Positions 1-23,439 of a stretch of 64,000 nucleotides of DNA are shown one piece after another. The notes beneath the pieces were generated by a model. The model was not told the DNA's origin. It was given only the letters and a program-made list of their open reading frames with translations, and ran no database searches. Every line of letters begins with the position of its first letter. Positions within the stretch are counted from its first letter, which is position 1. Where the stretch lies: the NCBI GenBank assembly GCA_004010835.2, contig CP030868.2, positions 1-64,000 on the forward strand, in the 5' to 3' direction. Both the position numbers and the translations under genes were made by a program. This DNA comes from Oenococcus sp. UCMA 16435. GTDB taxonomy: Bacteria; Bacillota; Bacilli; Lactobacillales; Lactobacillaceae.

Positions 1-1
1 A

Positions 2-4823: not shown

Positions 4824-5726
4824 ATGATTGCAAAAAGCAAATTACTAGGATCTATAGAGGCTGGTGGAACAAAGTTTATTTGTGCTGTTGCTGATACCAA
4901 TTTCAATATTGTTGATCAAATCAAATTTAAGACATCTAATCCGCATGAAACCTTACTGCAGACAATTAATTTTTTTCAAAAATTTAAGGTGTCTGCAGTT
5001 GGCGTTGGATCTTTTGGTCCAATCGGAATCAAAGAGGGTTACGACGACTATGGATTTATTACAAAAACACCAAAAGTCGGCTGGTCCGATTTTGATTTTA
5101 TTGGAACTTTAAAAGCTGCAATTAATGTTCCAATATTTTTTACGACAGACGTTAATTCTTCAGTCTATGGAGAATATCAATTCGGTACTGTTAAAAAGGA
5201 TCGGGCGCTGGTTTATTTTACCCTTGGGACAGGTGTTGGTGTCGGTGTTATTCAAAGCGGCCTATTTGTTGGTGGACGCTCACATCCGGAAATGGGACAT
5301 ATTATTTTGCGCAAACACCCTGACGACGCTAATTTTGCCGGAGTTTGTCGTTTCCACGGAGACTGTCTTGAAGGCCTCGCCTCTGGTCCTTCATTAGAAG
5401 CACGAACGGGAATTCGGGGAGAAAATATTTCCGATGATGATCCGGTTTGGGATATTATTGCTTATTATATTGCTCAAGCTGCTTGGTCGGTGACGTTGTC
5501 ATTTCGGCCCGATAAAATCATTTTTGGTGGTTCTGTTTCCGGTCGACCAGGTTTATTGTATAAAGCTCGTCAACAGTTTGAACAAATGAATAACGATTAT
5601 TTGCCACTTCCATCGTTGGATGAATATATTGTTCGTCCAACGATTGAAAACAACGGTTCGGCAACTTACGGAAATTTTGCTTTGGCTCTTTTTGCTTTGC
5701 AAAAAGAAGAAAATAAAAGTTGTTGA
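4824..5726 (+). CDS. scrK: ROK family fructokinase
   Basis: A 300-residue cytoplasmic sugar kinase that phosphorylates fructose (or a related hexose) with ATP. The N-terminal phosphate loop is GSIEAGGTKF (residues 9-18). The ROK zinc site appears as His, then GVCRFHGDCLEG around residues 172-183, the pattern typical of ScrK/GmuE fructokinases; the glycine-rich FTLGTGVGVG segment is near 132. Length is normal. The start ATG has GGGGGAAG just upstream. The gene is monocistronic; the operator-like dyad at 4751 suggests sugar control. The fructose preference is inferred from the zinc-binding subgroup. Confidence 0.88.
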   Translation: MIAKSKLLGSIEAGGTKFICAVADTNFNIVDQIKFKTSNPHETLLQTINFFQKFKVSAVGVGSFGPIGIKEGYDDYGFITKTPKVGWSDFDFIGTLKAAINVPIFFTTDVNSSVYGEYQFGTVKKDRALVYFTLGTGVGVGVIQSGLFVGGRSHPEMGHIILRKHPDDANFAGVCRFHGDCLEGLASGPSLEARTGIRGENISDDDPVWDIIAYYIAQAAWSVTLSFRPDKIIFGGSVSGRPGLLYKARQQFEQMNNDYLPLPSLDEYIVRPTIENNGSATYGNFALALFALQKEENKSC

Positions 5727-5857
5727 TTAAACTATTTTTTTATTTTTTTAATTGAATTGATATTAAAATATCTTAAATTGGATCTTTTAAAGGTGAAATA
5801 TTTATAAATGTTCGAGTTTTGCTGCTTTTATCTTTAAAAAATTGTATTCTAGTTTGT

Positions 5858-6511
5858 ATGAAGCGAATTTTTATCGTTAGACACGGGCGAACTGAATGGA
5901 ATTTAGAAGAAAGATTTCAGGGAGCTAATGGAGATTCGCCACTTCTGGAATCAAGTAAAGACGACTGTAGGAACTTGGCTAATTTTCTTGACAAGTTTGC
6001 ATTTGCGGCTGTTTATACCAGCCCAATCAAGCGTGCTAGAAGAACAGCTGAAATAACCTTGGCTGATTCCAAGAAACATTCTAAAGAAAAAATTATTATT
6101 GATGAAAGTTTTCGGGAACTTGCTTTTGGTGATTGGGAAGGTCTTACAAAAGCACAAGTCGTTGCTAAGCATCCTGAACTTTTTGCCAAATTAATTGCTA
6201 GAGAAGATGATCCGCGATTTTTGAATTTTGGCGTTGAGAATTTTGTCAAAGCGAGGGACCGTTTTAAAGCGGGAATTATCAGACGCAGTAAAGAAATTCA
6301 CGATGATGAAAATCTTTTAATTTTTTCTCATGGATCAATTATTCAACTCGGGATTAAAGCTTTAACTGGAAATGAAAATATTTCTTCGTTAAAAAATACT
6401 TCGACTTCGATTCTGCAAACAGCAGATGACGAGCATTTTACAATTGAAAGTTATAACGAAGTCGCTTATTTAAATGAAATTAATACTAAGGGAAGTACAA
6501 CACTTATTTGA
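5858..6511 (+). CDS. Histidine phosphatase (phosphoglycerate mutase family)
   Basis: A 217-residue member of the histidine phosphatase superfamily. The catalytic motif IVRHGRTEWN is at residues 5-14, and the second histidine is in FSHGSI, near residue 161. The family covers cofactor-dependent phosphoglycerate mutases and broad phosphatases (GpmB, PhoE); the sequence does not decide. The chosen ATG has no ribosome binding site but lies eight bases after a -10-like TATTCT (5845-5850), suggesting a leaderless message. The upstream in-frame start at 5819 is rejected because it adds residues the family lacks. The stop abuts the next gene's AGGAGG. Confidence 0.85.
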   Translation: MKRIFIVRHGRTEWNLEERFQGANGDSPLLESSKDDCRNLANFLDKFAFAAVYTSPIKRARRTAEITLADSKKHSKEKIIIDESFRELAFGDWEGLTKAQVVAKHPELFAKLIAREDDPRFLNFGVENFVKARDRFKAGIIRRSKEIHDDENLLIFSHGSIIQLGIKALTGNENISSLKNTSTSILQTADDEHFTIESYNEVAYLNEINTKGSTTLI

Positions 6512-6519
6512 GGAGGAAT

Positions 6520-7941
6520 ATGTTTCAGTTAGAAAAGTATCACACGAATGTTAAAAGAGAAGTAATTGCCGGTTTTACGACTTTTTTGTCAATGGTTTAT
6601 ATTTTCTTTTTAAACCCGCAGATTTTGGGGCAAACAGGCATGCCGAAAAAAGGTGTCTTTTTGGCCTCGATTATTGTTTCAACAATCGGAACTTTATTTA
6701 TGGGATTGTTCGCCAACGTTCCTTTTGCTTTGGCTCCTGGAATTGGTATGCAGGCCTATTTCACCTATACAATCGTTTTCGGTTTTCATTTCAAATGGCA
6801 ACAGGCTTTAGCGATTGTTTTTTTGGTTGGAACTTTTGATTTAATTATTACTTTGACTCATGGAAGGCGGGCAATTGTAAAAGCTATACCCGAGGAATTA
6901 AAAGCAGCAATCGCCGGTGGAATTGGCTTGTTTGTTACTTATATTGGTTTGAAAAACGCTGGTTTTATTAATTTTATTATCGATAAAGCAGATGTTATTT
7001 CCGGCTGGGGAACTTCTTCGATGATTGGTAATGGTAGCGTTACACCTGAGATGGCTAATTTTAACCAGGCACCGGTAATTTTAGCTTTGATCGGTTTATT
7101 GATTTTGATTGTTTTGCTTTTGCGGAAAATTCCCGGTGCTTTTTTGATTTCAATGATCTTGACAACGTTGATTGGTATTCCAATGGGCGTTACTAGTACA
7201 GATATCTCTTGGGGCCAATCGCTTTCAGAAACTTTTTCTGATTTTTCAAAAGTCTTTTTGGCTTCTTTTTCAAATCAAGGAATGCCAACACTTTTTACTA
7301 GTTGGCACGCTTTCCTATTAACACTTGCAACTGTTTTCGCTATGGGCTTGACAGGATTGTTTGATGCGATCGGAACCCTACTTGGAATCGGTGAACAAAC
7401 TCAAATCTTTACAAAAGAAGATCAGCGTGAGTTTGCTGAAAATCGTGCTGGATTTAAAACTCGAATGGATCGCGCTCTTTTAGCTGATACCGTGACGACA
7501 ACCAGTGCCGGTCTACTTGGCACCTCTAACACAACAACTTTTATCGAATCTGCTTCTGGAATTGCGGCTGGTGGAAGAACCGGTTTATCCAATCTTGTTA
7601 CGGCAGCGGCTTTTTTGCTGACAATTTTCTTTGCTCCTTTTGTTTCTGTAATTCCGAATGCGGCTACTGCACCAATTTTGATTCTGGTTGGTATTTCAAT
7701 GATGGGAGAATTTAAAAAAATCGAATGGGGCGATCTTGAAATTGCTATTCCGTCATTCTTTACTTCTGTATTTATGGCCCTGTCTTATTCTATTTCTTAC
7801 GGAATTGCGGCCGGATTCATCTTTTATATTTTTGTAAAAGTAATCAAAGGAAAATTCAAACAGATTAATCCGGTTGTTTTGATTATTAGTTTGATGTTTT
7901 TGGTCAACTTCATTCTGATTGCCTTTAGATTTGCTGATTAA
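6520..7941 (+). CDS. Purine permease, AzgA/PbuG subfamily (NCS2)
   Basis: A 473-residue inner-membrane transporter with about twelve hydrophobic segments, importing hypoxanthine/guanine or adenine with protons. Family signatures include the start FQLEKYHTNVKREVIAGFTTF, the PGIGMQAYF segment near 75 and GLFDAIGTLLGIG near 285. The GTSNTTTFIESASGIAAGGRTG region near 345 is part of the substrate site. The ATG at 6520 follows AGGAGG by four bases, directly after the previous stop, so the two genes are probably co-transcribed. Purine salvage also appears at 62111 (apt). Confidence 0.9.
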   Translation: MFQLEKYHTNVKREVIAGFTTFLSMVYIFFLNPQILGQTGMPKKGVFLASIIVSTIGTLFMGLFANVPFALAPGIGMQAYFTYTIVFGFHFKWQQALAIVFLVGTFDLIITLTHGRRAIVKAIPEELKAAIAGGIGLFVTYIGLKNAGFINFIIDKADVISGWGTSSMIGNGSVTPEMANFNQAPVILALIGLLILIVLLLRKIPGAFLISMILTTLIGIPMGVTSTDISWGQSLSETFSDFSKVFLASFSNQGMPTLFTSWHAFLLTLATVFAMGLTGLFDAIGTLLGIGEQTQIFTKEDQREFAENRAGFKTRMDRALLADTVTTTSAGLLGTSNTTTFIESASGIAAGGRTGLSNLVTAAAFLLTIFFAPFVSVIPNAATAPILILVGISMMGEFKKIEWGDLEIAIPSFFTSVFMALSYSISYGIAAGFIFYIFVKVIKGKFKQINPVVLIISLMFLVNFILIAFRFAD

Positions 7942-7965
7942 AGTTTTATTTTGTTAATAAATATG

Positions 7966-7978
7966 ACAGAATATCTGT
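7966..7978. promoter_or_regulatory. Dyad upstream of arcA
   Basis: A perfect inverted repeat ACAGA-ATA-TCTGT lies about 60 bases before the arcA start. A TTGTTA at 7951 and TATGAT at 7991-7996 lie nearby but are not spaced as one clean promoter. It may bind a regulator of arginine catabolism (ArgR or a CRP/FNR-type ArcR); the identity is unknown. Confidence 0.3.
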
Positions 7979-8038
7979 AAGTGTTACCTTTATGATGTTT
8001 AATCAATTACAAAAGATTTGATTAAAGTAGGAGCAAAA

Positions 8039-9283
8039 ATGCTGACAGAAAAAAGACCAATCCACGTAAATTCAGAAATTGGCAGATTGAAAACGGTTAT
8101 ACTTCATCGACCTGGAAAAGAAATCGAGAATTTGACGCCTGATACAATGGGATCTTTGCTGTTTGATGATATTCCTTATTTATTGATTGCCCAAAAGGAG
8201 CATGACGATTTCGCTGATACGCTTCGAAAAAAAGGCGTCGAAGTCTTATATCTTGAGAAATTAGTTGTTCAGGCTTTGGATACAAGCAAACAAGTCAAAT
8301 CTTTTTTTATTGATAAAATGATTGCTGAATCAGGATTTAAAAACGGGACCATACACAGAGAATTGAGAAATTTTTTAGCCAGTTTATCGACTAGAGAGAT
8401 GGTTGATAAAATCATGGCTGGTGTTCGTTTTGATGAAATTGATCTTACGCCAAAAGATTTACAATTTTTTGCCTTTGACCAAACAAAGCCTTTTTTAATG
8501 GCACCAATGCCCAATCTTTATTTCACTCGTGACCCATCGGCTTCAATCGGCGATGGTTTAACGATCAACCGGATGACTTTCAAAGCTCGGCGGCGGGAGT
8601 CGATGTTTACTGAATTAGTTATTAATTATCATCCGCGTTTTGCAAATAAAAATATTAACGTTTGGCGCGACCGAAATCAGACTAGCAGACTGGAAGGCGG
8701 CGATGAGCTGGTTCTTTCCGACCATGTACTGGCGATCGGTCTTTCACAAAGAACCAGTTCTGAAGCGATCAAGGACGTTGCTGAAAATTTATTTGCTGGA
8801 TCGAATTATGATACGGTGATTGCGATTCAGATTCCCCAAACACATGCGACAATGCATTTGGATACAGTTTTTACAATGGTTAATTTTGATCAGTTCACTG
8901 TTCATCCGATGATTCTCAACAGCAATGGAGAATTGCCGATTCTTGTAATGCATAAAGACAAAGACAACCAGATTAAAATCGAGTCCTCAAACAACCTTAA
9001 ATCAGTTCTAAAAGAACAACTCGGTTTAAGCGAACTCGATCTGATTTCAACCGGTGATGGCGATCCGATAATTTCAGCCCGCGAGCAGTGGAATGATGGA
9101 TCGAATACTTTGGCAATTGCACCTGGATCAGTGGTTACCTATGATCGAAATTATGTTTCAAATGAAGCTTTGCGTAAACACGGAATTCAGGTTTCTGAGG
9201 TTCCTTCAAGCGAGATTTCCCGTGGACGCGGGGGCCCACGTTGCATGAGCATGCCGATTTATCGCGAAGATATCGAAAAATGA
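8039..9283 (+). CDS. arcA: Arginine deiminase
   Basis: A 414-residue cytoplasmic enzyme that hydrolyses arginine to citrulline and ammonia, the first step of the acid-protecting, ATP-yielding deiminase pathway. The EGGDE motif (from residue 219), the catalytic His in TMHLDTVF and the nucleophile Cys402 in GPRCMSMP are present; length is normal. The ATG at 8039 follows AGGAG; an in-frame TTG at 8018 overlaps that site and is rejected. No arcB, arcC or arcD flanks it, so the pathway is either dispersed or incomplete. The last 169 codons lie inside the tandem duplication and recur at 12837-13345. Confidence 0.95.
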
Positions 9284-9290
9284 AATATTT

Positions 9291-9328
9291 AAAAAAGGTT
9301 GCATCAAATAGTCAATGCAGCCTTTTTT
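9291..9328. terminator. Terminator between arcA and the SufT-like gene
   Basis: AAAAAAGGTTGCAT pairs with ATGCAGCCTTTTTT around a ten-base loop. It follows the arcA stop and, read on the minus strand, follows the convergent SufT-like gene, so it serves both. It recurs at 13353-13390. Confidence 0.85.
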
Positions 9329-9352
9329 AAATTAATTGTTAATTCGTTGTTT

Positions 9353-9709
9353 TCAAGAAATTCCCAAAGAGATTCGGGCGATTCGAGAAATTCGATTTGG
9401 ATCCCAAACGATTGTTGGATCGATTTGTACCAGGACATTTGTAAAGTCACTGTATGTCATAATCGCGTCTTCGATAATTGTCTGTAGTTCGGCAGTTAAA
9501 GGGCATCCGAGGATTGTTAAAGCCATTAAAACGCGTAATTGCCGTTTCTTGTCTTTTTCAACAACTTGCAAACTGTAAATCAAACCGAGGTCCTGGACAC
9601 TAACTCCCATTTCCGGGTCAATCGCCTGTTTTAAAGCTTCTATGACTGCAGAAAACTCTGCTTCCGTCAAAGATTTTTCAACATTTTCAACTTGTGTATT
9701 TTTATTCAA
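9353..9709 (-). CDS. MIP18/DUF59 (SufT-like) Fe-S assembly factor, copy 1
   Basis: A 118-residue protein of the DUF59/MIP18 family, small factors that help mature iron-sulfur proteins. It shows the family signatures DPEMGVSVQDLGLIY (about residues 32-46) and TILGCPLT near 65-72, the latter holding the conserved Cys. Start is TTG at 9709; the only strong ribosome site, GGGAGG, is about twelve bases upstream, and an in-frame stop precludes earlier starts. It diverges from nrdD and lies near the suf operon, supporting a role in loading Fe-S clusters, for example into NrdG. Identical to the copy at 13415-13771. Confidence 0.85.
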   Translation of the reverse strand: MNKNTQVENVEKSLTEAEFSAVIEALKQAIDPEMGVSVQDLGLIYSLQVVEKDKKRQLRVLMALTILGCPLTAELQTIIEDAIMTYSDFTNVLVQIDPTIVWDPNRISRIARISLGIS

Positions 9710-9860
9710 AGCTTGTCACCAACCTCCCGATAAGTTTAATAAAAGTTTAATAAATTCTCACTTAAAATTAATTTTTTTCAACGGCTCCAGATTAGCATGA
9801 TTCAAGCAAAACATCTATATTTTCGCCTCAAAAAAACTAACTCTAAGACACTTTTTTAGA

Positions 9861-9889
9861 TTGAACCTTGTTGGAGAATCCGTTATTAT
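9861..9889 (+). promoter_or_regulatory. Promoter of nrdD, copy 1
   Basis: TTGAAC (9861-9866) and TATTAT (9884-9889) are separated by 17 bp. Transcription would start near 9896, leaving a leader of about 30 bases with AAAGGAG before the nrdD ATG. The same promoter recurs at 13923-13951. I did not find convincing paired NrdR boxes. Confidence 0.6.
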
Positions 9890-9924
9890 TGGCGTTAATC
9901 AAAAAGATAAAGGAGTTGAATAAA

Positions 9925-12126
9925 ATGATAAACCAAGATAATGATTCACCAGCAACATTAACCGCCATTAAAATCAAGGAAGACGATGGAAGTATCTCTG
10001 AATTGAAGGACGACCAAATAGAAAAAGTGCTTTTACACGCCAATGACAAAGTTGATCAACCGCTTGACAGCCAATTAATCAAAAATATTGTTGATCAAGT
10101 CATGACAAAAATGCCGCTTTCAGATGATTCTGTAGTAACCCGTCAGGGCTTGAACACAGCTATTTTGCGTTCTTTAAAAGAGCAAGGCAATCCACAATTA
10201 GCACAGGTCGCAAATAACCAATTATTGTCGGCAGAAATTAATTCTAGCAAAGCAACAGATATCAATTTTACGATTCAAAAACTGCTCAATAAAGACAAAA
10301 CGGTTGTCAATGAGAATGCGAATAAAGATAGCCATGTTTTCAATACTCAACGAGATTTAACCGCGGGAACCGTTGCGAGGTCGATTGGACTAAAAATGCT
10401 TCCGCCAAGGGTTGCCAAAGCACATATGAGTGGTGATATTCATTGGCACGATTTGGATTACCAACCATACAGTCCGATGACCAATTGCTGTTTGATCGAT
10501 TTTAAAGAAATGTTGACTAATGGATTTAAAATCGGCAATGCTGAGCTTGAATCACCAAATTCAATCCAGACTGCCACGGCTCAAATGGCACAAATTATTG
10601 CCAATGTTGCTTCCAGCCAATACGGAGGTTGTTCAGCAGACCGGACCGATGAATTTTTAGCGCCCTTTGCTGAAAAAAATTATCATAAGAATTTAGCTGA
10701 AGCAAAGGAATGGATCGAAGACGAAGACAAGCAAGAAGCTTTTGCTCGCCAAAAGACCGAAAAAGACATTTATGATGCTATGCAGGCTTTGGAATATGAA
10801 ATTAATACTCTGTATTCTTCTCAAGGACAAACACCTTTTACAACTGTTGGTTTTGGATTAGGGACAAGCTGGATCGAACGGTCAATTCAAAAGGCGATTT
10901 TGCAAGTCAGAATTAAAGGACTGGGTAAGGAAAGGCGGACAGCAATTTTTCCAAAACTAGTCTTTACTATCAAACGCGGTTTGAATCAAAAACCCGAGGA
11001 TCCTAACTATGATATTAAAGAGTTGGCAATCGAATGTGCTACTAAGCGTATGTATCCAGATGTTTTAATGTATGACAAAATTGTTGAACTGACTGGTAGT
11101 TTCAAGGCTCCAATGGGTTGTCGTTCATTTTTGCAAGGATGGTGGGACGAAAACGGTCGCGAGGTTAATGCCGGCCGAATGAACTTAGGCGTTGTTACAG
11201 TTAATCTGCCTAGAATAGCTATGGAATCAAAAGGCGATCAGGCAATGTTTTGGAAGATATTCGAGGAACGTTTGGATGTTTGCAAAGAGGCACTTGTTTT
11301 TAAGATAAACAGGGCCAAAGAGGCTAATCCGGAAAATGCTCCAATTCTTTATGAATACGGGGCCTTTGGAAAACGCTTGAAGCCAAATGATTCAATCGAC
11401 CAACTCTTCAATAAATCTCGCGCAACTATTTCTCTGGGATATATTGGTATCTATGAGGTTGGAACTGTCTTTTTCGGTCACGCTTGGGAACATAATCCTG
11501 AAGCTAAAGCATTTTCTGTTAAGATTGTAAAAACCTTATGGGAACATTGCAAAGCTTGGGAAAAGGAATATGGCTATCATTTCAGTGTATACAGTACCCC
11601 GAGTGAAAGCTTAACTGACACATTCTGTCGGCTTGATACAAAGAAGTTCGGTATTGTTAAGGATATTACTGATAAGGAATACTACACAAATAGTTTCCAT
11701 TATGATGTTCGAAAGAAAGTTACTCCTTTTGAAAAGATTGATTTTGAAAAGGATTATCCAAAATACTGTTCCGGTGGTTTTATTCATTATTGTGAATATC
11801 CAAATTTGAAACAAAATCCGAAAGCCTTGGAAGCGGTTTGGGACTATGCTTATGACAAAATTGGATATTTAGGGACTAATACCCCAATCGACCAATGTTT
11901 TAAATGCGGTTTTAAGGGCGAGTTTGAAGCCACAGCGCGTGGTTTTAAGTGCCCGAAGTGTGGTAATACCGATCCTGCAACTTGTGATGTTGTCAAGCGG
12001 ACTTGTGGATATCTTGGCAACCCATTGCAGCGGCCAATGATTCATGGACGTCATCAGGAAATTATTTCTCGTGTTAAGCACATGTCGTTAGGAAACGATA
12101 ATACGACTAGTGCCCGCCAAGGATAA
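9925..12126 (+). CDS. nrdD: Anaerobic (class III) ribonucleoside-triphosphate reductase, copy 1
   Basis: A 733-residue glycyl-radical enzyme that makes deoxyribonucleotides from NTPs without oxygen. The C-terminal zinc site is Cys658, Cys661, Cys676 and Cys679; the radical glycine, Gly695, lies in RTCGYLG. An N-terminal ATP-cone-like segment comes first. The ATG at 9925 follows AAAGGAG; the longer frame starting TTG at 9868 runs through the promoter and is rejected. nrdG follows after 11 bases. This copy lies wholly inside the duplicated unit and its protein is identical to that of copy 2. Confidence 0.97.
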   Translation: MINQDNDSPATLTAIKIKEDDGSISELKDDQIEKVLLHANDKVDQPLDSQLIKNIVDQVMTKMPLSDDSVVTRQGLNTAILRSLKEQGNPQLAQVANNQLLSAEINSSKATDINFTIQKLLNKDKTVVNENANKDSHVFNTQRDLTAGTVARSIGLKMLPPRVAKAHMSGDIHWHDLDYQPYSPMTNCCLIDFKEMLTNGFKIGNAELESPNSIQTATAQMAQIIANVASSQYGGCSADRTDEFLAPFAEKNYHKNLAEAKEWIEDEDKQEAFARQKTEKDIYDAMQALEYEINTLYSSQGQTPFTTVGFGLGTSWIERSIQKAILQVRIKGLGKERRTAIFPKLVFTIKRGLNQKPEDPNYDIKELAIECATKRMYPDVLMYDKIVELTGSFKAPMGCRSFLQGWWDENGREVNAGRMNLGVVTVNLPRIAMESKGDQAMFWKIFEERLDVCKEALVFKINRAKEANPENAPILYEYGAFGKRLKPNDSIDQLFNKSRATISLGYIGIYEVGTVFFGHAWEHNPEAKAFSVKIVKTLWEHCKAWEKEYGYHFSVYSTPSESLTDTFCRLDTKKFGIVKDITDKEYYTNSFHYDVRKKVTPFEKIDFEKDYPKYCSGGFIHYCEYPNLKQNPKALEAVWDYAYDKIGYLGTNTPIDQCFKCGFKGEFEATARGFKCPKCGNTDPATCDVVKRTCGYLGNPLQRPMIHGRHQEIISRVKHMSLGNDNTTSARQG

Positions 12127-12137
12127 GGGAGATTTTA

Positions 12138-12758
12138 ATGAGTGAAAAAGAAACGAAAACTGTGGCGAAAAGACAGCATCAACATCGGCAACGTTTACCA
12201 AAAAATCCAAAACCTAAAGAATGGTTAGCCAAGGATTTAAGCTTAAATTATGTAGCTAGTTATAAGCCGTTTAATTTTGTTGACGGCGAAGGGGTTCGTT
12301 GCAGCTTATATGTTAGTGGGTGCAAGTTTGATTGTCCTGGTTGCTATAACAAAGTCGCTCAGAGTTTTCATTATGGTCAACCATACACAAAAGATTTAGA
12401 AGATCAGATCATTGCTGATCTTGGCCAGTCCTATGTTCAAGGCTTGACTTTATTGGGTGGCGAACCCTTTTTAAACACTCATGTATGTTTGCAATTAATT
12501 GATCGAATTCATAAAGAATATGGGCATAGCAAAGACATTTGGTCTTGGACCGGCTATACCTGGGACGAACTGCAGCTAGAATCGGATGATAAAAAAGAAA
12601 TGTTGAGCAAGTTAGACATTTTAATTGATGGCCGTTTTTTGGAAGCACAAAAAGATTTGACGCTGCAATTTAGAGGCAGTTCGAATCAGAGAATCATTGA
12701 TGTTCAAAAATCCTTGCAGCAATCCAAGGTGGTTATTTGGGACCGTTTAGTTCGATAG
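12138..12758 (+). CDS. nrdG: Anaerobic RNR activating enzyme (radical SAM), copy 1
   Basis: A 206-residue radical-SAM protein that cleaves S-adenosylmethionine to place the glycyl radical on NrdD. The 4Fe-4S ligands are Cys62, Cys66 and Cys69 (CKFDCPGCY), and the SAM-binding TLLGGEPF follows near 113. It has an unusual basic N-terminal extension of about 35 residues. GGGAG precedes the ATG. In this copy the next frame downstream is not sufC but the SufC-ArcA chimera at 12776. Confidence 0.96.
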   Translation: MSEKETKTVAKRQHQHRQRLPKNPKPKEWLAKDLSLNYVASYKPFNFVDGEGVRCSLYVSGCKFDCPGCYNKVAQSFHYGQPYTKDLEDQIIADLGQSYVQGLTLLGGEPFLNTHVCLQLIDRIHKEYGHSKDIWSWTGYTWDELQLESDDKKEMLSKLDILIDGRFLEAQKDLTLQFRGSSNQRIIDVQKSLQQSKVVIWDRLVR

Positions 12759-12775
12759 GAAGGTGAGACTGATTA

Positions 12776-13345
12776 GTGACAACTTTAGAGATCAAAAATT
12801 TACATGTCCAAGCAGAGGGACAACACATTTTAAAGGACGTTGCTGAAAATTTATTTGCTGGATCGAATTATGATACGGTGATTGCGATTCAGATTCCCCA
12901 AACACATGCGACAATGCATTTGGATACAGTTTTTACAATGGTTAATTTTGATCAGTTCACTGTTCATCCGATGATTCTCAACAGCAATGGAGAATTGCCG
13001 ATTCTTGTAATGCATAAAGACAAAGACAACCAGATTAAAATCGAGTCCTCAAACAACCTTAAATCAGTTCTAAAAGAACAACTCGGTTTAAGCGAACTCG
13101 ATCTGATTTCAACCGGTGATGGCGATCCGATAATTTCAGCCCGCGAGCAGTGGAATGATGGATCGAATACTTTGGCAATTGCACCTGGATCAGTGGTTAC
13201 CTATGATCGAAATTATGTTTCAAATGAAGCTTTGCGTAAACACGGAATTCAGGTTTCTGAGGTTCCTTCAAGCGAGATTTCCCGTGGACGCGGGGGCCCA
13301 CGTTGCATGAGCATGCCGATTTATCGCGAAGATATCGAAAAATGA
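12776..13345 (+). CDS. Chimeric SufC(1-20)-ArcA(246-414) frame at the duplication join
   Basis: This 189-codon frame starts with the sufC GTG and ribosome site (GAAGGTGAG), reads the first 20 SufC residues, then crosses in frame into ArcA from residue 246 to its natural stop. It keeps the catalytic His and Cys of the deiminase but lacks the EGGDE motif and the N-terminal half, and it lacks all SufC ATPase motifs. It should be transcribed behind nrdDG copy 1 and translated as well as sufC. It is almost certainly not a working deiminase; it may be degraded or could interfere with ArcA oligomers. Confidence 0.85.
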
Positions 13346-13352
13346 AATATTT

Positions 13353-13390
13353 AAAAAAGGTTGCATCAAATAGTCAATGCAGCCTTTTTT
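13353..13390. terminator. Terminator after the chimera, copy 2 of 9291-9328
   Basis: The same hairpin with T run as after arcA. It should stop transcripts from nrdDG copy 1 after the chimera, so copy 1 does not feed sufCDSBU. Confidence 0.85.
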
Positions 13391-13414
13391 AAATTAATTG
13401 TTAATTCGTTGTTT

Positions 13415-13771
13415 TCAAGAAATTCCCAAAGAGATTCGGGCGATTCGAGAAATTCGATTTGGATCCCAAACGATTGTTGGATCGATTTGTACCAGGACAT
13501 TTGTAAAGTCACTGTATGTCATAATCGCGTCTTCGATAATTGTCTGTAGTTCGGCAGTTAAAGGGCATCCGAGGATTGTTAAAGCCATTAAAACGCGTAA
13601 TTGCCGTTTCTTGTCTTTTTCAACAACTTGCAAACTGTAAATCAAACCGAGGTCCTGGACACTAACTCCCATTTCCGGGTCAATCGCCTGTTTTAAAGCT
13701 TCTATGACTGCAGAAAACTCTGCTTCCGTCAAAGATTTTTCAACATTTTCAACTTGTGTATTTTTATTCAA
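13415..13771 (-). CDS. MIP18/DUF59 (SufT-like) Fe-S assembly factor, copy 2
   Basis: Identical in translation to the gene at 9353-9709, including its TTG start and the DPE...DLGLIY and GCPLT signatures. It is transcribed towards the chimera and away from nrdD copy 2. Confidence 0.85.
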   Translation of the reverse strand: MNKNTQVENVEKSLTEAEFSAVIEALKQAIDPEMGVSVQDLGLIYSLQVVEKDKKRQLRVLMALTILGCPLTAELQTIIEDAIMTYSDFTNVLVQIDPTIVWDPNRISRIARISLGIS

Positions 13772-13922
13772 AGCTTGTCACCAACCTCCCGATAAGTTTA
13801 ATAAAAGTTTAATAAATTCTCACTTAAAATTAATTTTTTTCAACGGCTCCAGATTAGCATGATTCAAGCAAAACATCTATATTTTCGCCTCAAAAAAACT
13901 AACTCTAAGACACTTTTTTAGA

Positions 13923-13951
13923 TTGAACCTTGTTGGAGAATCCGTTATTAT
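13923..13951 (+). promoter_or_regulatory. Promoter of nrdD, copy 2
   Basis: Duplicate of 9861-9889: TTGAAC and TATTAT with a 17-bp spacer. Through nrdD and nrdG this copy is also the most obvious promoter for the suf genes downstream, because no terminator or promoter separates nrdG from sufC. Confidence 0.6.
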
Positions 13952-13986
13952 TGGCGTTAATCAAAAAGATAAAGGAGTTGAATAAA

Positions 13987-16188
13987 ATGATAAACCAAGA
14001 TAATGATTCACCAGCAACATTAACCGCCATTAAAATCAAGGAAGACGATGGAAGTATCTCTGAATTGAAGGACGACCAAATAGAAAAAGTGCTTTTACAC
14101 GCCAATGACAAAGTTGATCAACCGCTTGACAGCCAATTAATCAAAAATATTGTTGATCAAGTCATGACAAAAATGCCGCTTTCAGATGATTCTGTAGTAA
14201 CCCGTCAGGGCTTGAACACAGCTATTTTGCGTTCTTTAAAAGAGCAAGGCAATCCACAATTAGCACAGGTCGCAAATAACCAATTATTGTCGGCAGAAAT
14301 TAATTCTAGCAAAGCAACAGATATCAATTTTACGATTCAAAAACTGCTCAATAAAGACAAAACGGTTGTCAATGAGAATGCGAATAAAGATAGCCATGTT
14401 TTCAATACTCAACGAGATTTAACCGCGGGAACCGTTGCGAGGTCGATTGGACTAAAAATGCTTCCGCCAAGGGTTGCCAAAGCACATATGAGTGGTGATA
14501 TTCATTGGCACGATTTGGATTACCAACCATACAGTCCGATGACCAATTGCTGTTTGATCGATTTTAAAGAAATGTTGACTAATGGATTTAAAATCGGCAA
14601 TGCTGAGCTTGAATCACCAAATTCAATCCAGACTGCCACGGCTCAAATGGCACAAATTATTGCCAATGTTGCTTCCAGCCAATACGGAGGTTGTTCAGCA
14701 GACCGGACCGATGAATTTTTAGCGCCCTTTGCTGAAAAAAATTATCATAAGAATTTAGCTGAAGCAAAGGAATGGATCGAAGACGAAGACAAGCAAGAAG
14801 CTTTTGCTCGCCAAAAGACCGAAAAAGACATTTATGATGCTATGCAGGCTTTGGAATATGAAATTAATACTCTGTATTCTTCTCAAGGACAAACACCTTT
14901 TACAACTGTTGGTTTTGGATTAGGGACAAGCTGGATCGAACGGTCAATTCAAAAGGCGATTTTGCAAGTCAGAATTAAAGGACTGGGTAAGGAAAGGCGG
15001 ACAGCAATTTTTCCAAAACTAGTCTTTACTATCAAACGCGGTTTGAATCAAAAACCCGAGGATCCTAACTATGATATTAAAGAGTTGGCAATCGAATGTG
15101 CTACTAAGCGTATGTATCCAGATGTTTTAATGTATGACAAAATTGTTGAACTGACTGGTAGTTTCAAGGCTCCAATGGGTTGTCGTTCATTTTTGCAAGG
15201 ATGGTGGGACGAAAACGGTCGCGAGGTTAATGCCGGCCGAATGAACTTAGGCGTTGTTACAGTTAATCTGCCTAGAATAGCTATGGAATCAAAAGGCGAT
15301 CAGGCAATGTTTTGGAAGATATTCGAGGAACGTTTGGATGTTTGCAAAGAGGCACTTGTTTTTAAGATAAACAGGGCCAAAGAGGCTAATCCGGAAAATG
15401 CTCCAATTCTTTATGAATACGGGGCCTTTGGAAAACGCTTGAAGCCAAATGATTCAATCGACCAACTCTTCAATAAATCTCGCGCAACTATTTCTCTGGG
15501 ATATATTGGTATCTATGAGGTTGGAACTGTCTTTTTCGGTCACGCTTGGGAACATAATCCTGAAGCTAAAGCATTTTCTGTTAAGATTGTAAAAACCTTA
15601 TGGGAACATTGCAAAGCTTGGGAAAAGGAATATGGCTATCATTTCAGTGTATACAGTACCCCGAGTGAAAGCTTAACTGACACATTCTGTCGGCTTGATA
15701 CAAAGAAGTTCGGTATTGTTAAGGATATTACTGATAAGGAATACTACACAAATAGTTTCCATTATGATGTTCGAAAGAAAGTTACTCCTTTTGAAAAGAT
15801 TGATTTTGAAAAGGATTATCCAAAATACTGTTCCGGTGGTTTTATTCATTATTGTGAATATCCAAATTTGAAACAAAATCCGAAAGCCTTGGAAGCGGTT
15901 TGGGACTATGCTTATGACAAAATTGGATATTTAGGGACTAATACCCCAATCGACCAATGTTTTAAATGCGGTTTTAAGGGCGAGTTTGAAGCCACAGCGC
16001 GTGGTTTTAAGTGCCCGAAGTGTGGTAATACCGATCCTGCAACTTGTGATGTTGTCAAGCGGACTTGTGGATATCTTGGCAACCCATTGCAGCGGCCAAT
16101 GATTCATGGACGTCATCAGGAAATTATTTCTCGTGTTAAGCACATGTCGTTAGGAAACGATAATACGACTAGTGCCCGCCAAGGATAA
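13987..16188 (+). CDS. nrdD: Anaerobic (class III) ribonucleoside-triphosphate reductase, copy 2
   Basis: Identical in translation to nrdD copy 1 (733 residues), with the same zinc cysteines, glycyl-radical segment, ATG and AAAGGAG site. It is followed by nrdG copy 2 and then the intact sufC, so this is the copy in the ancestral downstream context. Copy 1 is the one in the ancestral upstream context beside full arcA. Confidence 0.97.
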   Translation: MINQDNDSPATLTAIKIKEDDGSISELKDDQIEKVLLHANDKVDQPLDSQLIKNIVDQVMTKMPLSDDSVVTRQGLNTAILRSLKEQGNPQLAQVANNQLLSAEINSSKATDINFTIQKLLNKDKTVVNENANKDSHVFNTQRDLTAGTVARSIGLKMLPPRVAKAHMSGDIHWHDLDYQPYSPMTNCCLIDFKEMLTNGFKIGNAELESPNSIQTATAQMAQIIANVASSQYGGCSADRTDEFLAPFAEKNYHKNLAEAKEWIEDEDKQEAFARQKTEKDIYDAMQALEYEINTLYSSQGQTPFTTVGFGLGTSWIERSIQKAILQVRIKGLGKERRTAIFPKLVFTIKRGLNQKPEDPNYDIKELAIECATKRMYPDVLMYDKIVELTGSFKAPMGCRSFLQGWWDENGREVNAGRMNLGVVTVNLPRIAMESKGDQAMFWKIFEERLDVCKEALVFKINRAKEANPENAPILYEYGAFGKRLKPNDSIDQLFNKSRATISLGYIGIYEVGTVFFGHAWEHNPEAKAFSVKIVKTLWEHCKAWEKEYGYHFSVYSTPSESLTDTFCRLDTKKFGIVKDITDKEYYTNSFHYDVRKKVTPFEKIDFEKDYPKYCSGGFIHYCEYPNLKQNPKALEAVWDYAYDKIGYLGTNTPIDQCFKCGFKGEFEATARGFKCPKCGNTDPATCDVVKRTCGYLGNPLQRPMIHGRHQEIISRVKHMSLGNDNTTSARQG

Positions 16189-16199
16189 GGGAGATTTTA

Positions 16200-16820
16200 A
16201 TGAGTGAAAAAGAAACGAAAACTGTGGCGAAAAGACAGCATCAACATCGGCAACGTTTACCAAAAAATCCAAAACCTAAAGAATGGTTAGCCAAGGATTT
16301 AAGCTTAAATTATGTAGCTAGTTATAAGCCGTTTAATTTTGTTGACGGCGAAGGGGTTCGTTGCAGCTTATATGTTAGTGGGTGCAAGTTTGATTGTCCT
16401 GGTTGCTATAACAAAGTCGCTCAGAGTTTTCATTATGGTCAACCATACACAAAAGATTTAGAAGATCAGATCATTGCTGATCTTGGCCAGTCCTATGTTC
16501 AAGGCTTGACTTTATTGGGTGGCGAACCCTTTTTAAACACTCATGTATGTTTGCAATTAATTGATCGAATTCATAAAGAATATGGGCATAGCAAAGACAT
16601 TTGGTCTTGGACCGGCTATACCTGGGACGAACTGCAGCTAGAATCGGATGATAAAAAAGAAATGTTGAGCAAGTTAGACATTTTAATTGATGGCCGTTTT
16701 TTGGAAGCACAAAAAGATTTGACGCTGCAATTTAGAGGCAGTTCGAATCAGAGAATCATTGATGTTCAAAAATCCTTGCAGCAATCCAAGGTGGTTATTT
16801 GGGACCGTTTAGTTCGATAG
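16200..16820 (+). CDS. nrdG: Anaerobic RNR activating enzyme (radical SAM), copy 2
   Basis: Identical in translation to nrdG copy 1. It ends 17 bases before the sufC start, with the sufC ribosome site (GAAGGTGAG) directly after its stop, so nrdD-nrdG-sufCDSBU probably forms one transcript. That makes sense functionally, as NrdG needs a 4Fe-4S cluster built by the SUF machine. Confidence 0.96.
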   Translation: MSEKETKTVAKRQHQHRQRLPKNPKPKEWLAKDLSLNYVASYKPFNFVDGEGVRCSLYVSGCKFDCPGCYNKVAQSFHYGQPYTKDLEDQIIADLGQSYVQGLTLLGGEPFLNTHVCLQLIDRIHKEYGHSKDIWSWTGYTWDELQLESDDKKEMLSKLDILIDGRFLEAQKDLTLQFRGSSNQRIIDVQKSLQQSKVVIWDRLVR

Positions 16821-16837
16821 GAAGGTGAGACTGATTA

Positions 16838-17608
16838 GTGACAACTTTAGAGATCAAAAATTTACATGTCCAAGCAGAGGGACAACACATTTTAAAGGGC
16901 GTTGATTTAACTATATCTACCGGTGAAATTCATGCTATTATGGGTCCGAACGGCACCGGAAAATCGACTTTGTCCGAAACGATTATGGGCAGAAGCGGAT
17001 ATCAAGTGACCGAAGGCGACATTTTATTGGATGGCGAAAGTATTTTAGACTGGACAGTCGATAAACGTGCTCGGCACGGTCTGTTCCTCGCGATGCAGTA
17101 TCCTCAAGAAATACCCGGAATTACGAATATGGAATTTATTCGAGCAGCGGTTAATGCTGGTCGGCCAAAAGAACAGGCAATTAAGGTTCGTGATTTTCTT
17201 CAACAGCTGGATGAGAAAATGGCTTTGTTAAAAATACCGGAAGAAATGGCTGAGAGGTATTTAAACGAAGGTTTTTCCGGTGGCGAGAAAAAACGTAACG
17301 AAATATTGCAACTTTTGATGCTGAAACCTCATTTTGCAATTCTTGATGAGATTGATTCCGGTCTTGATATCGATGCGTTAACGATTGTCGCTAATGGGGT
17401 CAACTCTTTGCGCGGATCTACTTTTGGTTCTTTGATTATCACTCACTATCAGCGACTTTTAAAATACATTGTTCCTGATGTTGTCCATATTATGATGGGT
17501 GGACGTATTGTAAAAACGGGTGGTCCTGAGTTGGCAGCCGAACTAGAAAAAACCGGATATGAGGGTCTCGCAAAGACTCTTGGCTTAGAGACTGCTGCCG
17601 ATGATTAA
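16838..17608 (+). CDS. sufC: Fe-S assembly ATPase SufC
   Basis: A 256-residue ABC-type ATPase that partners SufB and SufD in the cluster-building scaffold. Walker A is GPNGTGKST (about residues 36-44), the signature FSGGEKKR lies near 148, Walker B is FAILDEIDSGLD near 168, and the H-loop ITHY is near 202. GTG start with GAAGGTGAG eight bases ahead. Its first 20 codons belong to the duplicated unit. First gene of sufCDSBU; sufD overlaps its end by eight bases. Confidence 0.97.
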   Translation: MTTLEIKNLHVQAEGQHILKGVDLTISTGEIHAIMGPNGTGKSTLSETIMGRSGYQVTEGDILLDGESILDWTVDKRARHGLFLAMQYPQEIPGITNMEFIRAAVNAGRPKEQAIKVRDFLQQLDEKMALLKIPEEMAERYLNEGFSGGEKKRNEILQLLMLKPHFAILDEIDSGLDIDALTIVANGVNSLRGSTFGSLIITHYQRLLKYIVPDVVHIMMGGRIVKTGGPELAAELEKTGYEGLAKTLGLETAADD

Positions 17609-18881
17609 AACGAGACATTCTGAATTTTTTAAACGCCAATTGGATAATTTATCAGATCTTCACGAAGTTGAATGGTTGACCGAGAATCGTAAAAAAGCTT
17701 TTTCTCTGAGCCGAGACTTGAATTGGCCGGATTATCCACGAGTTTTAAAGACGACTTTTCAAGCAATTTCAGCGCCATCAAGATGGTCAATCGAAGAAGA
17801 AAAATATTTTTTTACTGAAAAATCACAAATTAGGATCGAACAGCTTAATTTATCCAGTTTAAAGATTTATCTTTCTTCAAAGCTTCAAAAACTTGGCGTC
17901 ATTGTGATGGATCTTTTCGAAGCGGCAGAAAAGAAACCTGACTTGGTCCAGAAGTATTTGCAAAATGATCCGGATAATCGTTTGCTGGCCATGCACCAAG
18001 CTTATTGGAATTGTGGATTATTGATTTATTTGCCAAACGATCTTCATTTAAAACAGCCAATTGAAATTTCTTTAATTGTAGATGATTATGCTTCGGCGAT
18101 TGAACAGCATATTTTATTTATTGCTGGAAGCAACGTAAAGGCAACAGTTGTCCAAACGACAAAGTCTTCAGCTGATTTGAACAAAGTTCAGCTTAATTCT
18201 GTTTTTGATTTGATTGCCGGTCCGGGAAGCCATCTTGATTGTTTTGCGGTCGACCAATTGAATCATTCCCGGATTAGCTATTTTAATCGTTTTAGTCGTC
18301 TTGGAACAGATGCACAAGTCAATTGGCTTTTGGCCGAAATGAATTTGAATAATTTAGTCGGTGAATGTTCAGCAATTTTAAACGGCAATGGTTCACAAGC
18401 AAATTTAAGAGTTGTTAGTTTAGCCGATCGAGAACAAAAACAGGCTTTAATGACAAAATTAACTCACATCGGTCAACATACAACTGGGAATATTAATCAA
18501 CGCGGGGTAATTCTTCAAAGGGGCCGTTTGATTTATAACGCTGTCGGCAAAATTGTTAAGGGTGCCCATGGTGCAAATTCGGAACAGACCAGTCGAATTT
18601 TATTATTGTCTCCCACTGCGACAGGTGATGCCAATCCAATTCTTTTAATTGATGAAAATGATGTCGAGGCCGGCCACGCTGCAAGTATTGGTCGAGTTAG
18701 TCCCGAGCAGCTTTATTATTTAATGAGCCGAGGCTTGACAGTTGATAGGGCTCGCCAACTACTTGTTAAAGGCTTTTTCGATGATCTGTTGGATCGTTTG
18801 CCGATTAATGATTTAAGAGTTGAATTGGATCAGGCATTAGAAAGGAGATTGTTAACGAATGCCAAAAAATCAATTTCGTGA
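17601..18881 (+). CDS. sufD: Fe-S assembly protein SufD
   Basis: A 426-residue scaffold subunit with the right-handed beta-helix fold of the SufB/SufD family; the conserved C-terminal segment around AHGANSEQTSRILL and [15 protein letters not shown] is visible near residues 315-380. It forms the SufBC2D complex. Start overlaps sufC; the gene is normal in length. The resemblance to SufB is clear at the C-terminus, but the gene order and the lower conservation mark it as SufD. Confidence 0.93.
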   Translation: MIKTRHSEFFKRQLDNLSDLHEVEWLTENRKKAFSLSRDLNWPDYPRVLKTTFQAISAPSRWSIEEEKYFFTEKSQIRIEQLNLSSLKIYLSSKLQKLGVIVMDLFEAAEKKPDLVQKYLQNDPDNRLLAMHQAYWNCGLLIYLPNDLHLKQPIEISLIVDDYASAIEQHILFIAGSNVKATVVQTTKSSADLNKVQLNSVFDLIAGPGSHLDCFAVDQLNHSRISYFNRFSRLGTDAQVNWLLAEMNLNNLVGECSAILNGNGSQANLRVVSLADREQKQALMTKLTHIGQHTTGNINQRGVILQRGRLIYNAVGKIVKGAHGANSEQTSRILLLSPTATGDANPILLIDENDVEAGHAASIGRVSPEQLYYLMSRGLTVDRARQLLVKGFFDDLLDRLPINDLRVELDQALERRLLTNAKKSIS

Positions 18882-20112
18882 TGACTTTCCTATTTTGAAT
18901 AACATAAAAATGAATGATGAACCTTTGACCTATCTGGACAATGCTGCAACGAGCCAAAAACCTCAACTTGTGATTGATAGAATTAGCAAATATTATGCCT
19001 ATGAAAATGCTAATATTCACCGGGCAACACATACTTTGGCTTTAAAAGCAACTGACGATTACGAACAGGTCCGTGATCAGGTTCAACATTTTATTAATGC
19101 AGAATCCCGTGATGAGATAATTTTTACCCGCAGCACGACTGAAGGCCTAAACTGGTTGGCTCAACGGTGGGGCGAGGCAAAACTGAAACCGGGAGATGAA
19201 ATTGTTCTTTCAATTTTAGAACATCATAGTAATCTTGTCCCCTGGCAGCAGGTAGCCAAAAAAACGGGTGCCCGCTTACATTTTTTAGATTTTAATCGAG
19301 AAGGTGTTATCGATTTAAATTCTGCTAAAGAGATAATTAATTCAAAAACAAAAATTGTTAGTATTACCCAGGTTTCCAATGTGCTTGGCAGCATTCAGCC
19401 GATTAAAGAGTTGGCAATCATGGCGCACAGCGTTGGTGCAGTTATGATTGTCGATGCTGCTCAGAGTGTTCCCCATTTTGCGATTGATGTCCAAAATCTG
19501 GATTGTGATTTTTTGGCTTTTTCTGCCCATAAAATGTTGGGACCAACAGGAGTTGGCGTTTTATACGGAAAAAACGAACTATTAAATCAAATGGACCCTG
19601 AGTTTTTTGGTGGCGAGATGATTGAAGAGGTTAGCAAAACTAAAGCAAGCTTCAAAACCGGAGCTTTGCGTTTTGAAGCTGGCACGCAAAATATTGCCGG
19701 CGTAATTGGCTTTGGCGCAGCTCTAACATATTTACAGAAAGTTGGTTTTGATAAAATTACCGCACAGGATAAATCTTTGATGGAAGCTGCCATGTCCGGC
19801 TTGCAAAATAGCCGGAAGGTAAAGATTTATGGATCTGTTGATCCGGCCAATCACACTGGAATCATCTCTTTTAACGTTGATAAGATTCATCCTCATGATG
19901 TTTCGACAGTCTTTGATCTAGACGGTGTTGCGATTCGAGCGGGCCATCATTGTGCCGAACCTTTAATGGATCGTTTGGGCGTTTCGGCGACCTGTCGGGC
20001 AAGCTTTTATTTTTATAACAATTTAGATGATGTTGAAAGATTTTTAATTGCTTTAAAAGACACCGAAGATTTTTTTAATCGTCATCCTTCAAAGGAGTCT
20101 TCAAATGGCTAA
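18859..20112 (+). CDS. sufS: Cysteine desulfurase SufS
   Basis: A 417-residue PLP-dependent class V enzyme that takes sulfur from cysteine for cluster assembly. The PLP lysine is in [11 protein letters not shown] near 228, the catalytic cysteine in GHHCAEPLM near 367, and EHHSNLVPW near 122 is typical of the SufS group. AAAGGAG lies upstream of the ATG, inside the end of sufD (23-base overlap). Together with SufU it forms the sulfur-transfer pair. Confidence 0.96.
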
Positions 20113-21493
20113 TACAGTACAAAGATCCGGCACAGAATTTCATGATCAGTTCAAACCGATATACTCTACTGGAATCGGTCTTAATGAAAAGGTTGTTCGC
20201 GAAATTTCGGCTGCCAAACACGAACCGGATTGGATGCTTGATTATCGTTTAAAATCATTAGCAATTTATAATAAAATGCCGATGCCTGATTTTGGACCTG
20301 ACTTAAGCAGCCTGCAACTTGATCGTTTACATTATTTCCAACGTGCGACTGACAAAAAGTATCGTAATTGGGACGATGTGCCCAAGACTATTAAAAACAC
20401 TTTTGATCGTTTGGGCGTTCCCGAGGCAGAAAGACAGTACCTGGCAGGCTCGAGTGCCCAATATGAGTCGGAAGTCGTTTATCACAATATTAAAGATCAA
20501 TTTGCCAAACAGGGAATTATTTTTACCGATACAGATACGGCCTTACAGAAATATCCGGAATTATTTAAAAAATGGTTTGGTAAATTAGTTAGCCCGGCAA
20601 CAAATAAATTTTCGGCATTGAATGGAGCCGTTTGGTCTGGTGGAGCTTTTATTTATGTTCCAAAGGGTGTTCGCGTTAAAACACCAATGCAGTCTTATTT
20701 TCGAATTAATGAAATTAATACTGGACAATTCGAACGAACTTTAATTATTGTTGACGAAGGCGCCAGCGTGAACTATGTGGAGGGTTGCACAGCTCCACGC
20801 TATGATTCCGATAGTCTTCATGCGGCAGTCGTGGAAGTAAACGTCCAGAGGGATGCTTATTGCCGCTATACAACGATTCAAAACTGGTCGACTAATGTTT
20901 ACAGTATGGAAACAAAAAAGGCTTCAGCAGCTGAAAATGCGACGATGGAGTGGGTTGACGGTAACCTAGGCTCAAAAATTACGATGAAATATCCGTCTGT
21001 TTATTTAAACGGCCCGGGAGCAAGAGGAACGATGCTGTCAATTGCAGTTGCTGGCGCAAACATGGATCAGGATACTGGAGCCCGAATGATTCACAATGCT
21101 CCGAATACTTCTTCAAGTATTGTTTCAAAATCAATTTCCAAAGATGGCGGAGCAGTCGACTATCGTGGCACGGTCCGTTTTGGCGAACACTCCCAGGGCT
21201 CAAAAGCTCATGTCGAATGTGACACAATTATTATGGATGATAAGTCATCTTCCGATACGATTCCGATTAACGAAATTCATAATGGCCAAATCAGCATGGA
21301 ACATGAAGCCCGTGTTTCAAAAATATCGGAGGAACAGCTCTATTATTTAATGAGTCGCGGAATTTCTGAAGCAACAGCTACTCAAATGATTATTATGGGT
21401 TTTATTGAACCCTTTACCAAACAACTGCCAATGGAGTATGCGGTTGAGCTTAATCGTCTGATAGAATTTCAGATGGCAGGTTCAATCGGTTAG
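20105..21493 (+). CDS. sufB: Fe-S assembly scaffold SufB
   Basis: A 462-residue scaffold subunit. Family marks include [15 protein letters not shown] near 185, VEGCTAP near 222 with a conserved Cys, and [17 protein letters not shown] in the C-terminal third. The ATG overlaps the sufS stop by eight bases with AAAGGAG ahead. In many lactobacilli sufU precedes sufB; here the order is sufB then sufU. Confidence 0.96.
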
Positions 21494-21502
21494 GAGACTT
21501 TC

Positions 21503-21946
21503 GTGGGATTAGAAGGATTAAATCAGTTATACCGCCAAGTTATTTTAGACGCTGCGGTTAATCAAAGATATCACGGGAAGTTATTAAACCCAACGGCGGT
21601 GCAGCTTGCTCATAATCCGAATTGTGGCGATGTTATAGAGCTCCAGATTAAAGTTTCTGATAAGCGAATTACCGAAATCGCTTTTCAAGGACAAGGCTGT
21701 ACAATTAGTCAGGCTTCAGCGAGCATTCTCGCTGATTTGGCGCTCCATCATTCACTTGAAAACGTTAAAACAAAAATTTCCCAATTTCAAAGCATGATTA
21801 CTGGAAAAGAAATCGGGGAAATCGATCAGCTTGGTGATGCTTCGGTTTTTTCTAAAATAAGTCAATTTCCAACTCGTGTGAAATGCGCCGGTTTGGCTTG
21901 GGATGCCTTAGAACAAATACTAAAAAATAATCAATTTGATCAGTAG
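21503..21946 (+). CDS. sufU: Sulfur-transfer protein SufU
   Basis: A 147-residue zinc protein that accepts persulfide sulfur from SufS. The three conserved cysteines are seen in NPNCGD, GQGCTIS and RVKCAGLAW, with the Asp of the first motif completing the site. GTG start with TAGGAG ahead, nine bases after sufB. Last gene of the suf run, followed directly by a terminator. Confidence 0.95.
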   Translation: MGLEGLNQLYRQVILDAAVNQRYHGKLLNPTAVQLAHNPNCGDVIELQIKVSDKRITEIAFQGQGCTISQASASILADLALHHSLENVKTKISQFQSMITGKEIGEIDQLGDASVFSKISQFPTRVKCAGLAWDALEQILKNNQFDQ

Positions 21947-21948
21947 AA

Positions 21949-21977
21949 AAAAAGGAGGAATAATTAACCTCCTTTTT
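21949..21977 (+). terminator. Terminator of the suf operon
   Basis: AAAAAGGAGG pairs with CCTCCTTTTT around a nine-base loop, three bases after the sufU stop. Its T run leads directly into the -10-like TATTAT of the next gene. Confidence 0.85.
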
Positions 21978-21990
21978 GTATTATTAAGCT

Positions 21991-22302: not shown

Positions 22303-22314
22303 GGAGCTCTATAA

Positions 22315-22989: not shown

Positions 22990-22991
22990 TT

Positions 22992-23021
22992 TTGATAGCC
23001 AAGTACTTTGCTTGATATAAT
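22992..23021 (+). promoter_or_regulatory. Promoter of the DUF1831 gene (leaderless)
   Basis: TTGATA (22992-22997) and a perfect TATAAT (23016-23021) are 18 bp apart. The expected start point, seven bases after the -10 box, is the A of the ATG at 23028. This is the cleanest case of the leaderless arrangement in the window. Confidence 0.7.
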
Positions 23022-23027
23022 TTAAAC

Positions 23028-23369: not shown

Positions 23370-23439
23370 TTGTTTTTTAATATTCAAATCTTAATTAAGC
23401 GCCGTATGACGCTATTTATTTTGAGTTAAACTGATTGAG

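Follow-up and report, generated by a model that had tools for sequence, protein, structure and literature searches.

A probable recent 4062-bp tandem duplication of the nrdDG region, joined at four shared bases, in Oenococcus sp. UCMA 16435

The first 64,000 nucleotides of the Oenococcus sp. UCMA 16435 chromosome (contig CP030868.2; hereafter the window) contain two head-to-tail copies of a 4062-bp block that includes nrdD and nrdG, which encode a class III ribonucleotide reductase (RNR) and its activase; class III RNR works without oxygen. This is probably a real and recent tandem duplication that arose by a short-homology event in an Oenococcus near O. oeni.

To delimit the repeat, the window was matched against a copy of itself shifted by 4062 positions, and exact runs longer than 15 bases were reported. 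This gave a single exact run of 4066 bp (8771-12836 against 12833-16898) with no mismatches and no gaps, composed of the 4062-bp unit and a 4-bp AAGG common to the left border, the join, and the right border. The two copies have 0 differences in 4062 bp, and an exact repeat of this length is far beyond chance; no other direct repeats sharing an exact 25-mer are present in the 64-kb window. A search of the whole assembly (G000; 2,030,442 bp, two contigs) with the unit returned four matches, two of them full-length at 100% identity and two of them 46-bp self-complementary matches that correspond to a hairpin within the unit. A first-pass annotation had described a 4062-bp tandem duplication at 8775..16898 with its join in a short shared AAGG; the exact self-match bears out the coordinates, the unit length and the join, and AAGG is found at all three borders:

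8771..8774, plus strand: AAGG microhomology at the arcA border (self-comparison).
8775..12836, plus strand: copy 1 of the 4062-bp unit, comprising the 3' part of arcA, the sufT-like gene, nrdD, nrdG, and the 5' end of sufC, 20 codons long (self-comparison and assembly search).
12833..12836, plus strand: AAGG at the new join, with the crossover within or at these four bases (self-comparison).
12837..16898, plus strand: copy 2 of the unit, 100% identical to copy 1 (self-comparison and assembly search).
16895..16898, plus strand: AAGG microhomology at the sufC border (self-comparison).

Within the unit the order is arcA codons 253-421, hairpin, sufT-like gene (minus strand), intergenic region, nrdD, nrdG, and sufC codons 1-20. 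The annotated limits in mid-arcA and at codon 20 of sufC are correct, arcA codon 252 (AAG) starting at 8771 and sufC codon 20 (AAG) at 12833. The reading frame is the same at the two borders, each of which has a Lys codon (AAG; Ile-Lys-Asp-Val in arcA, Leu-Lys-Gly-Val in sufC), and the join therefore creates an in-frame hybrid open reading frame (ORF), which TIGR01078 matches over residues 20-187, under the whole-protein cut-off. Translations of the sufT-like gene, NrdD, and NrdG are the same in both copies, as had been claimed, and the ORFs and the self-match agree with the further claim that nrdDG is doubled while arcA and sufC are kept whole. The genes concerned are as follows:

8018..9283, plus strand: arcA, arginine deiminase, whole, 421 amino acids from TTG (TIGR01078, 530.6 bits; cut-off 489.1).
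9353..9709, minus strand: sufT-like gene (SUF-associated family), copy 1 (TIGR02945, 64.2 bits, below the curated cut-off of 143.4).
9925..12126, plus strand: nrdD, class III RNR, copy 1 (TIGR02487, 622.1 bits, and NF006732, 1142.9 bits, both above cut-off).
12138..12758, plus strand: nrdG, radical-SAM activase, copy 1 (TIGR02491, 177.5 bits; cut-off 126.1).
12776..13345, plus strand: hybrid ORF at the join, SufC 1-20 plus ArcA 253-421, in frame, 189 amino acids (ORF list and profile scan).
13415..13771, minus strand: sufT-like gene, copy 2 (ORF list and identity of the copies).
13987..16188, plus strand: nrdD, copy 2, its start placed as in copy 1 (the ORF caller gives 13930).
16200..16820, plus strand: nrdG, copy 2 (ORF list and identity of the copies).
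16838..17608, plus strand: sufC, whole, first gene of sufC-sufD-sufS-sufB-sufU, which extends to 21946 (TIGR01978, 348.4 bits).

The ORF caller starts nrdD copy 1 at 9868; because AAGGAG at 9910-9915 precedes ATG 9925, the latter is the likely start, hence NrdD would have 733 rather than 752 amino acids. nrdD and nrdG are adjacent and both score above their NCBIfam cut-offs, as in a class III nrdDG operon; unlike the usual operon, this one is present as two tandem copies beside sufC, which starts 17 bases after nrdG copy 2. sufD falls slightly under its model cut-off (219.2 versus 222 bits). The arcA gene at 8018-9283 is the sole full-length arginine deiminase gene found in the assembly, the second of two PF02274 matches, at 12833-13327, being truncated; O. 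oeni genome G003, by comparison, has two full-length arginine deiminase genes.

The duplication would have formed by RecA-independent illegitimate recombination, through template switching or unequal sister exchange at AAGG. Both parental borders are present in the window and are collinear in O. oeni. Among random breakpoint pairs in the window, at least 4 shared bases occur in 2.4%, and in 1.8% the 30 bases around the breakpoint include at least 14 matches. Nine matches in a 10-mer across the breakpoint (AAGG[A/G]CGTTG) correspond to 0.05% of random pairs, although this measure was chosen post hoc. O. oeni has a comparable near-match (CAAGGATGTTG and AAAGGGTGTTA), and the substrate of the duplication therefore probably predates the event. 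Only short inverted repeats lie within 300 bases of the three borders, one of them 10 bases before the arcA border:

8705..8760, unstranded: imperfect inverted repeat, arms 8705-8717 and 8748-8760, 12 of 13 pairs, 30 nucleotides apart.

This inverted repeat could help a polymerase or fork to stall, or it may be a chance pairing. A scan of 19 distinct proteins encoded between 134 and 22986 found no transposase or recombinase; with no long repeat at the borders either, an origin by a mobile element is rejected for the scanned neighborhood. Homologous recombination between long repeats is likewise rejected, the shared sequence being 4 bp only.

The first-pass annotation had left room for an assembly artefact, in which a chimeric read or a mis-resolved graph caused one block to be written twice. 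No base distinguishes the copies, and a 4-bp homology is also possible in a chimeric molecule, but we regard this explanation as unlikely. The assembly looks finished, with one 2,026,464-bp chromosome and a 3,978-bp contig. No overlap of 20, 30 or 50 bases exists between the chromosome ends, and the reading frames open at the end and at the start are in phase, as expected if a closed circle had been cut within a gene. The join is new sequence whose exact homology is only 4 bp, not the size of a k-mer or an overlap. Within each of 22 stretches of the genome (423,978 bases, 20.9% of the total), other direct exact repeats reach at most 92 bp; the assembly seems not to be prone to false tandem repeats. 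An artefact is thus disfavored by the finished-looking chromosome and by the 92-bp maximum.

Relatives indicate the ancestral state. The genus set comprised seven genomes including this one, five near complete and two (G005 and G006) incomplete; the O. oeni reference was DSM 20252 (locus L015), to which locus L005 of G003 is identical over 7051 bp. O. oeni carries the block once in L015, collinear, in the order arcA, sufT-like gene, nrdD, nrdG, sufC; window 5683-12836 aligns to L015 3820-10958, and window 12833-24191 aligns to 6902-18247 of that L015 stretch. Genome G004, a single contig, has the same five genes in the same order and in single copy, and it is there that the single-copy state is firmest. 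In G001 and G002 (loci L007 and L008) nrdDG is also single, with sufC beside nrdD in opposite orientation; the nrdDG-suf neighborhood is old in the genus yet rearranged. nrdD occurs once in each of four of the six other genus genomes and was not found in the incomplete G005 and G006. Across 83 nrdD loci (76 plus 7 genus loci), none has a second nrdD copy in the fetched flanks, whose lengths vary, although an exact repeat would be lost from draft assemblies by collapse; in 4 of the 83 two pieces were found, each corresponding to different parts of one gene. The block being single, with the same gene order, in O. oeni and G004, the simplest reading is that this genome's lineage gained the second copy, with the caveat that exact tandem repeats collapse in draft assemblies. 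Horizontal gain of the second copy is rejected, because its sequence matches the resident copy exactly and contains parts of the resident arcA and sufC. Of the records in a plasmid collection, 62 match the unit at identities of 60-80%, none of them over as much as 80% of its length.

The identity of the copies also bears on age. The unit and O. oeni share 3567 of 4057 aligned bases (87.9%), leaving 490 differences, and 222 of 526 four-fold sites differ from O. oeni (whole arcA, sufT-like gene, nrdD, and nrdG, slightly beyond the unit). Assuming no conversion, the 95% Poisson bound on divergence of the copies (3 differences) is about 0.6% of the divergence from O. oeni. Mutation rates reported for lactic acid bacteria are 1.97e-8 for Lb. 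acidophilus, which lacks mismatch repair, and 9.01e-10 for Lb. crispatus (PMC12691593); with all sites taken as neutral, these rates bound the age at about 19,000 and about 410,000 generations, respectively, and the true bounds are higher, since selection against changes raises both. MutS_I and MutL (PF01119) domains were found in none of the seven genus genomes (two of them incomplete), compared with 11 of 14 controls, and O. oeni has been described as having lost mutS-mutL (PMC6498615), so that a rate measured without mismatch repair is reasonable here. PF00488 does have a match in all seven genus genomes, in open frames of 794-813 amino acids; these proteins are taken as MutS2, since the MutS_I domain is absent from all seven.

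Tandem 4-kb copies are good substrates for gene conversion. An old duplication held identical in this way is nevertheless highly improbable, even though RecA is encoded in the genome: the copies match right up to the final base of each border (8771 and 16898), where conversion is least effective, and the duplication is not seen in O. oeni or G004. The border-identity test, however, has little power for moderate ages. Of the annotated alternatives, a very young duplication or one under gene conversion, the former is supported and the latter is not needed. On a recent origin, the copies would simply be too young to have diverged, and, RecA being present, reversion of the pair to a single copy or further expansion should occur at appreciable rates.

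Each copy retains the entire nrdD upstream region, so that the sufT-like gene, nrdD, and nrdG would each be present at twice the dose; arcA, sufC and the remainder of suf stay single and intact. How the two copies are transcribed may depend on the hairpin between arcA and the sufT-like gene, which recurs 3' of the hybrid ORF:

9287..9332, unstranded: hairpin between arcA and the sufT-like gene, copy 1, terminator-like on both strands (46-bp self-match and folding).
13349..13394, unstranded: identical hairpin, copy 2, 3' of the hybrid ORF (same sequence as copy 1, with its putative role carried over).

The fold has a predicted energy of -19.6 kcal/mol (z -5.8) on the plus strand and -19.0 kcal/mol (z -6.1) on the minus strand, and a similar palindrome is found in O. 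oeni; from its folding, the hairpin is predicted to be a two-way terminator. The copy-1 nrdDG transcript would run into the SufC-ArcA hybrid ORF and probably end at the arcA hairpin beyond it, separate from suf. Copy 2 retains the original linkage to sufCDSBU, and if the hairpin terminates, suf would be read only with copy-2 nrdDG. The first-pass annotation mentions neither the hybrid ORF nor this probable separation of copy 1 from suf. A scan for promoter-like matches found 37 where 24.9 were expected, and none is relied on; a 16-letter NrdR box consensus, looked for with a site upstream of nrdD in mind, had 0 matches in the window against a chance expectation of 4.2, from which no inference is drawn.

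Several points weigh against a recent short-homology duplication with these consequences. Of eight duplication junctions tested in the relevant passages of PMC3411829, the five that were confirmed measured 11, 13, 14, 16 and 27 bp and the three that lacked confirmation 7, 9 and 17 bp; the 4-bp junction here is shorter than any verified in those passages. As for the transcripts, the hairpin is absent from the output of a consensus terminator scan, its putative role as a terminator coming from folding. Finally, the O. oeni G003 assembly is a draft of 30 contigs and may have collapsed an exact tandem repeat. An earlier selection is described, in part of PMC11111574, as one in which microhomology was unnecessary.

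A special case of recent duplication is a selected amplification, in which extra class III RNR, and perhaps the sufT-like gene, aids growth under strict anaerobiosis or iron-sulfur (Fe-S) stress and the duplication spread by selection; this is possible, though we think it doubtful. The unit holds the whole of nrdDG with its upstream region and breaks no gene, but a gene-preserving outcome is expected of any tandem duplication. A RecA-positive host should be inclined to lose a costly or neutral 4-kb tandem repeat, and its persistence in the sequenced clone hints at upkeep. Tandem duplicates of O. oeni AWRIB429 have been suggested to be relevant to growth in wine (PMC8510247), in passages that carry no test of the suggestion and do not have nrdDG among their named examples. 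Against selection, none of the six other genus genomes shows the duplication, and the genome also encodes the large and small subunits of a class I RNR, each in single copy. Because these subunits are encoded, nrdDG is not the sole source of deoxynucleoside triphosphates (dNTPs), and the idea that it is the only RNR of the genome, its dose being vital, is rejected. The proposal of the first-pass annotation that the block could have been selected, for example during anaerobic, wine-like growth, is not borne out for this genome. Amplification would be marked by higher copy number or by recurrence in independent lineages; there are two copies here, and nrdD is single in the four other nrdD-bearing genus genomes, a small sample. 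For a single sequenced clone, drift or hitch-hiking would suffice as an explanation. Doubling nrdDG without suf may favor anaerobic growth. A more elaborate scenario, which we consider quite unlikely, is a very young duplication, in a genus lacking MutS1/MutL, that separates nrdDG from the Fe-S assembly operon, with copy 1 an independent unit ending at the arcA hairpin and copy 2 still suf-linked, the added dose selected for anaerobic dNTP supply, and the SufC-ArcA hybrid a possible new protein.

The duplication is best read as belonging to a well-known class, the short-junction (microhomology) tandem duplications. A 2004 work by Reams and Neidle is said to be a source on such duplications of bacterial chromosomes. 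Duplications are described as being among the most frequent bacterial rearrangements (PMC3411829), and the present case resembles those treated in the relevant passages of that source in its head-to-tail arrangement, new join at a few shared bases, lack of a long end repeat, and gene-preserving outer borders; it differs in that a finished-looking genome itself has this state, whereas those were rare molecules in a culture, and in its shorter homology. Tandem duplication is not new to the genus, since a nanopore assembly of O. oeni AWRIB429 is reported to show tandem gene duplications in ten regions, and the duplicates named include a two-gene block (PMC8510247). The present case shares with it the genus and the tandem arrangement; the genes named in those passages are instead transporters, glycosyltransferases, and UspA with an Fe2+/Mn2+ transporter. 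Literature searches of limited depth turned up no published account of this duplication.

Some other features of the genome were observed along the way. The contig begins and ends within a gene: at the chromosome end (L120) an open frame whose start is PHP-like (MRKIDFHVHTLST...) is in phase with the frame at window base 1, which is ATPase-like with weak AAA matches; the PHP label comes from reading the sequence. Within window 1-1737 the ATPase-like frame stops at 614-616, and AAA-like pieces continue in another frame to a stop near 1168; the gene across the chromosome start looks broken. The GC content of the first 2 kb of the window is 28.5%. At window 28062-28895 and 28738-29166, overlapping minus-strand ORFs may be one frameshifted gene. 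Elsewhere, a 398-bp exact inverted copy, possibly an insertion sequence, is present at two distant places (L104 11990-12387 and L117 1-398), L109 and L115 share 1424 bp at 83%, and L116 contains an imperfect direct repeat of about 545 bp at 75%.

If neutral or an artefact, the duplication is of little importance. Should it be real, it offers a clean, base-resolved case of a gene-preserving duplication observed shortly after it arose, in a genus that lacks mismatch repair; it would have a testable effect, with nrdDG doubled and suf not, and its join would provide a natural marker for loss or gain of copies in culture. It would also be a warning about drafts, since short-read assemblies of relatives are likely to miss an exact tandem repeat of 4 kb.

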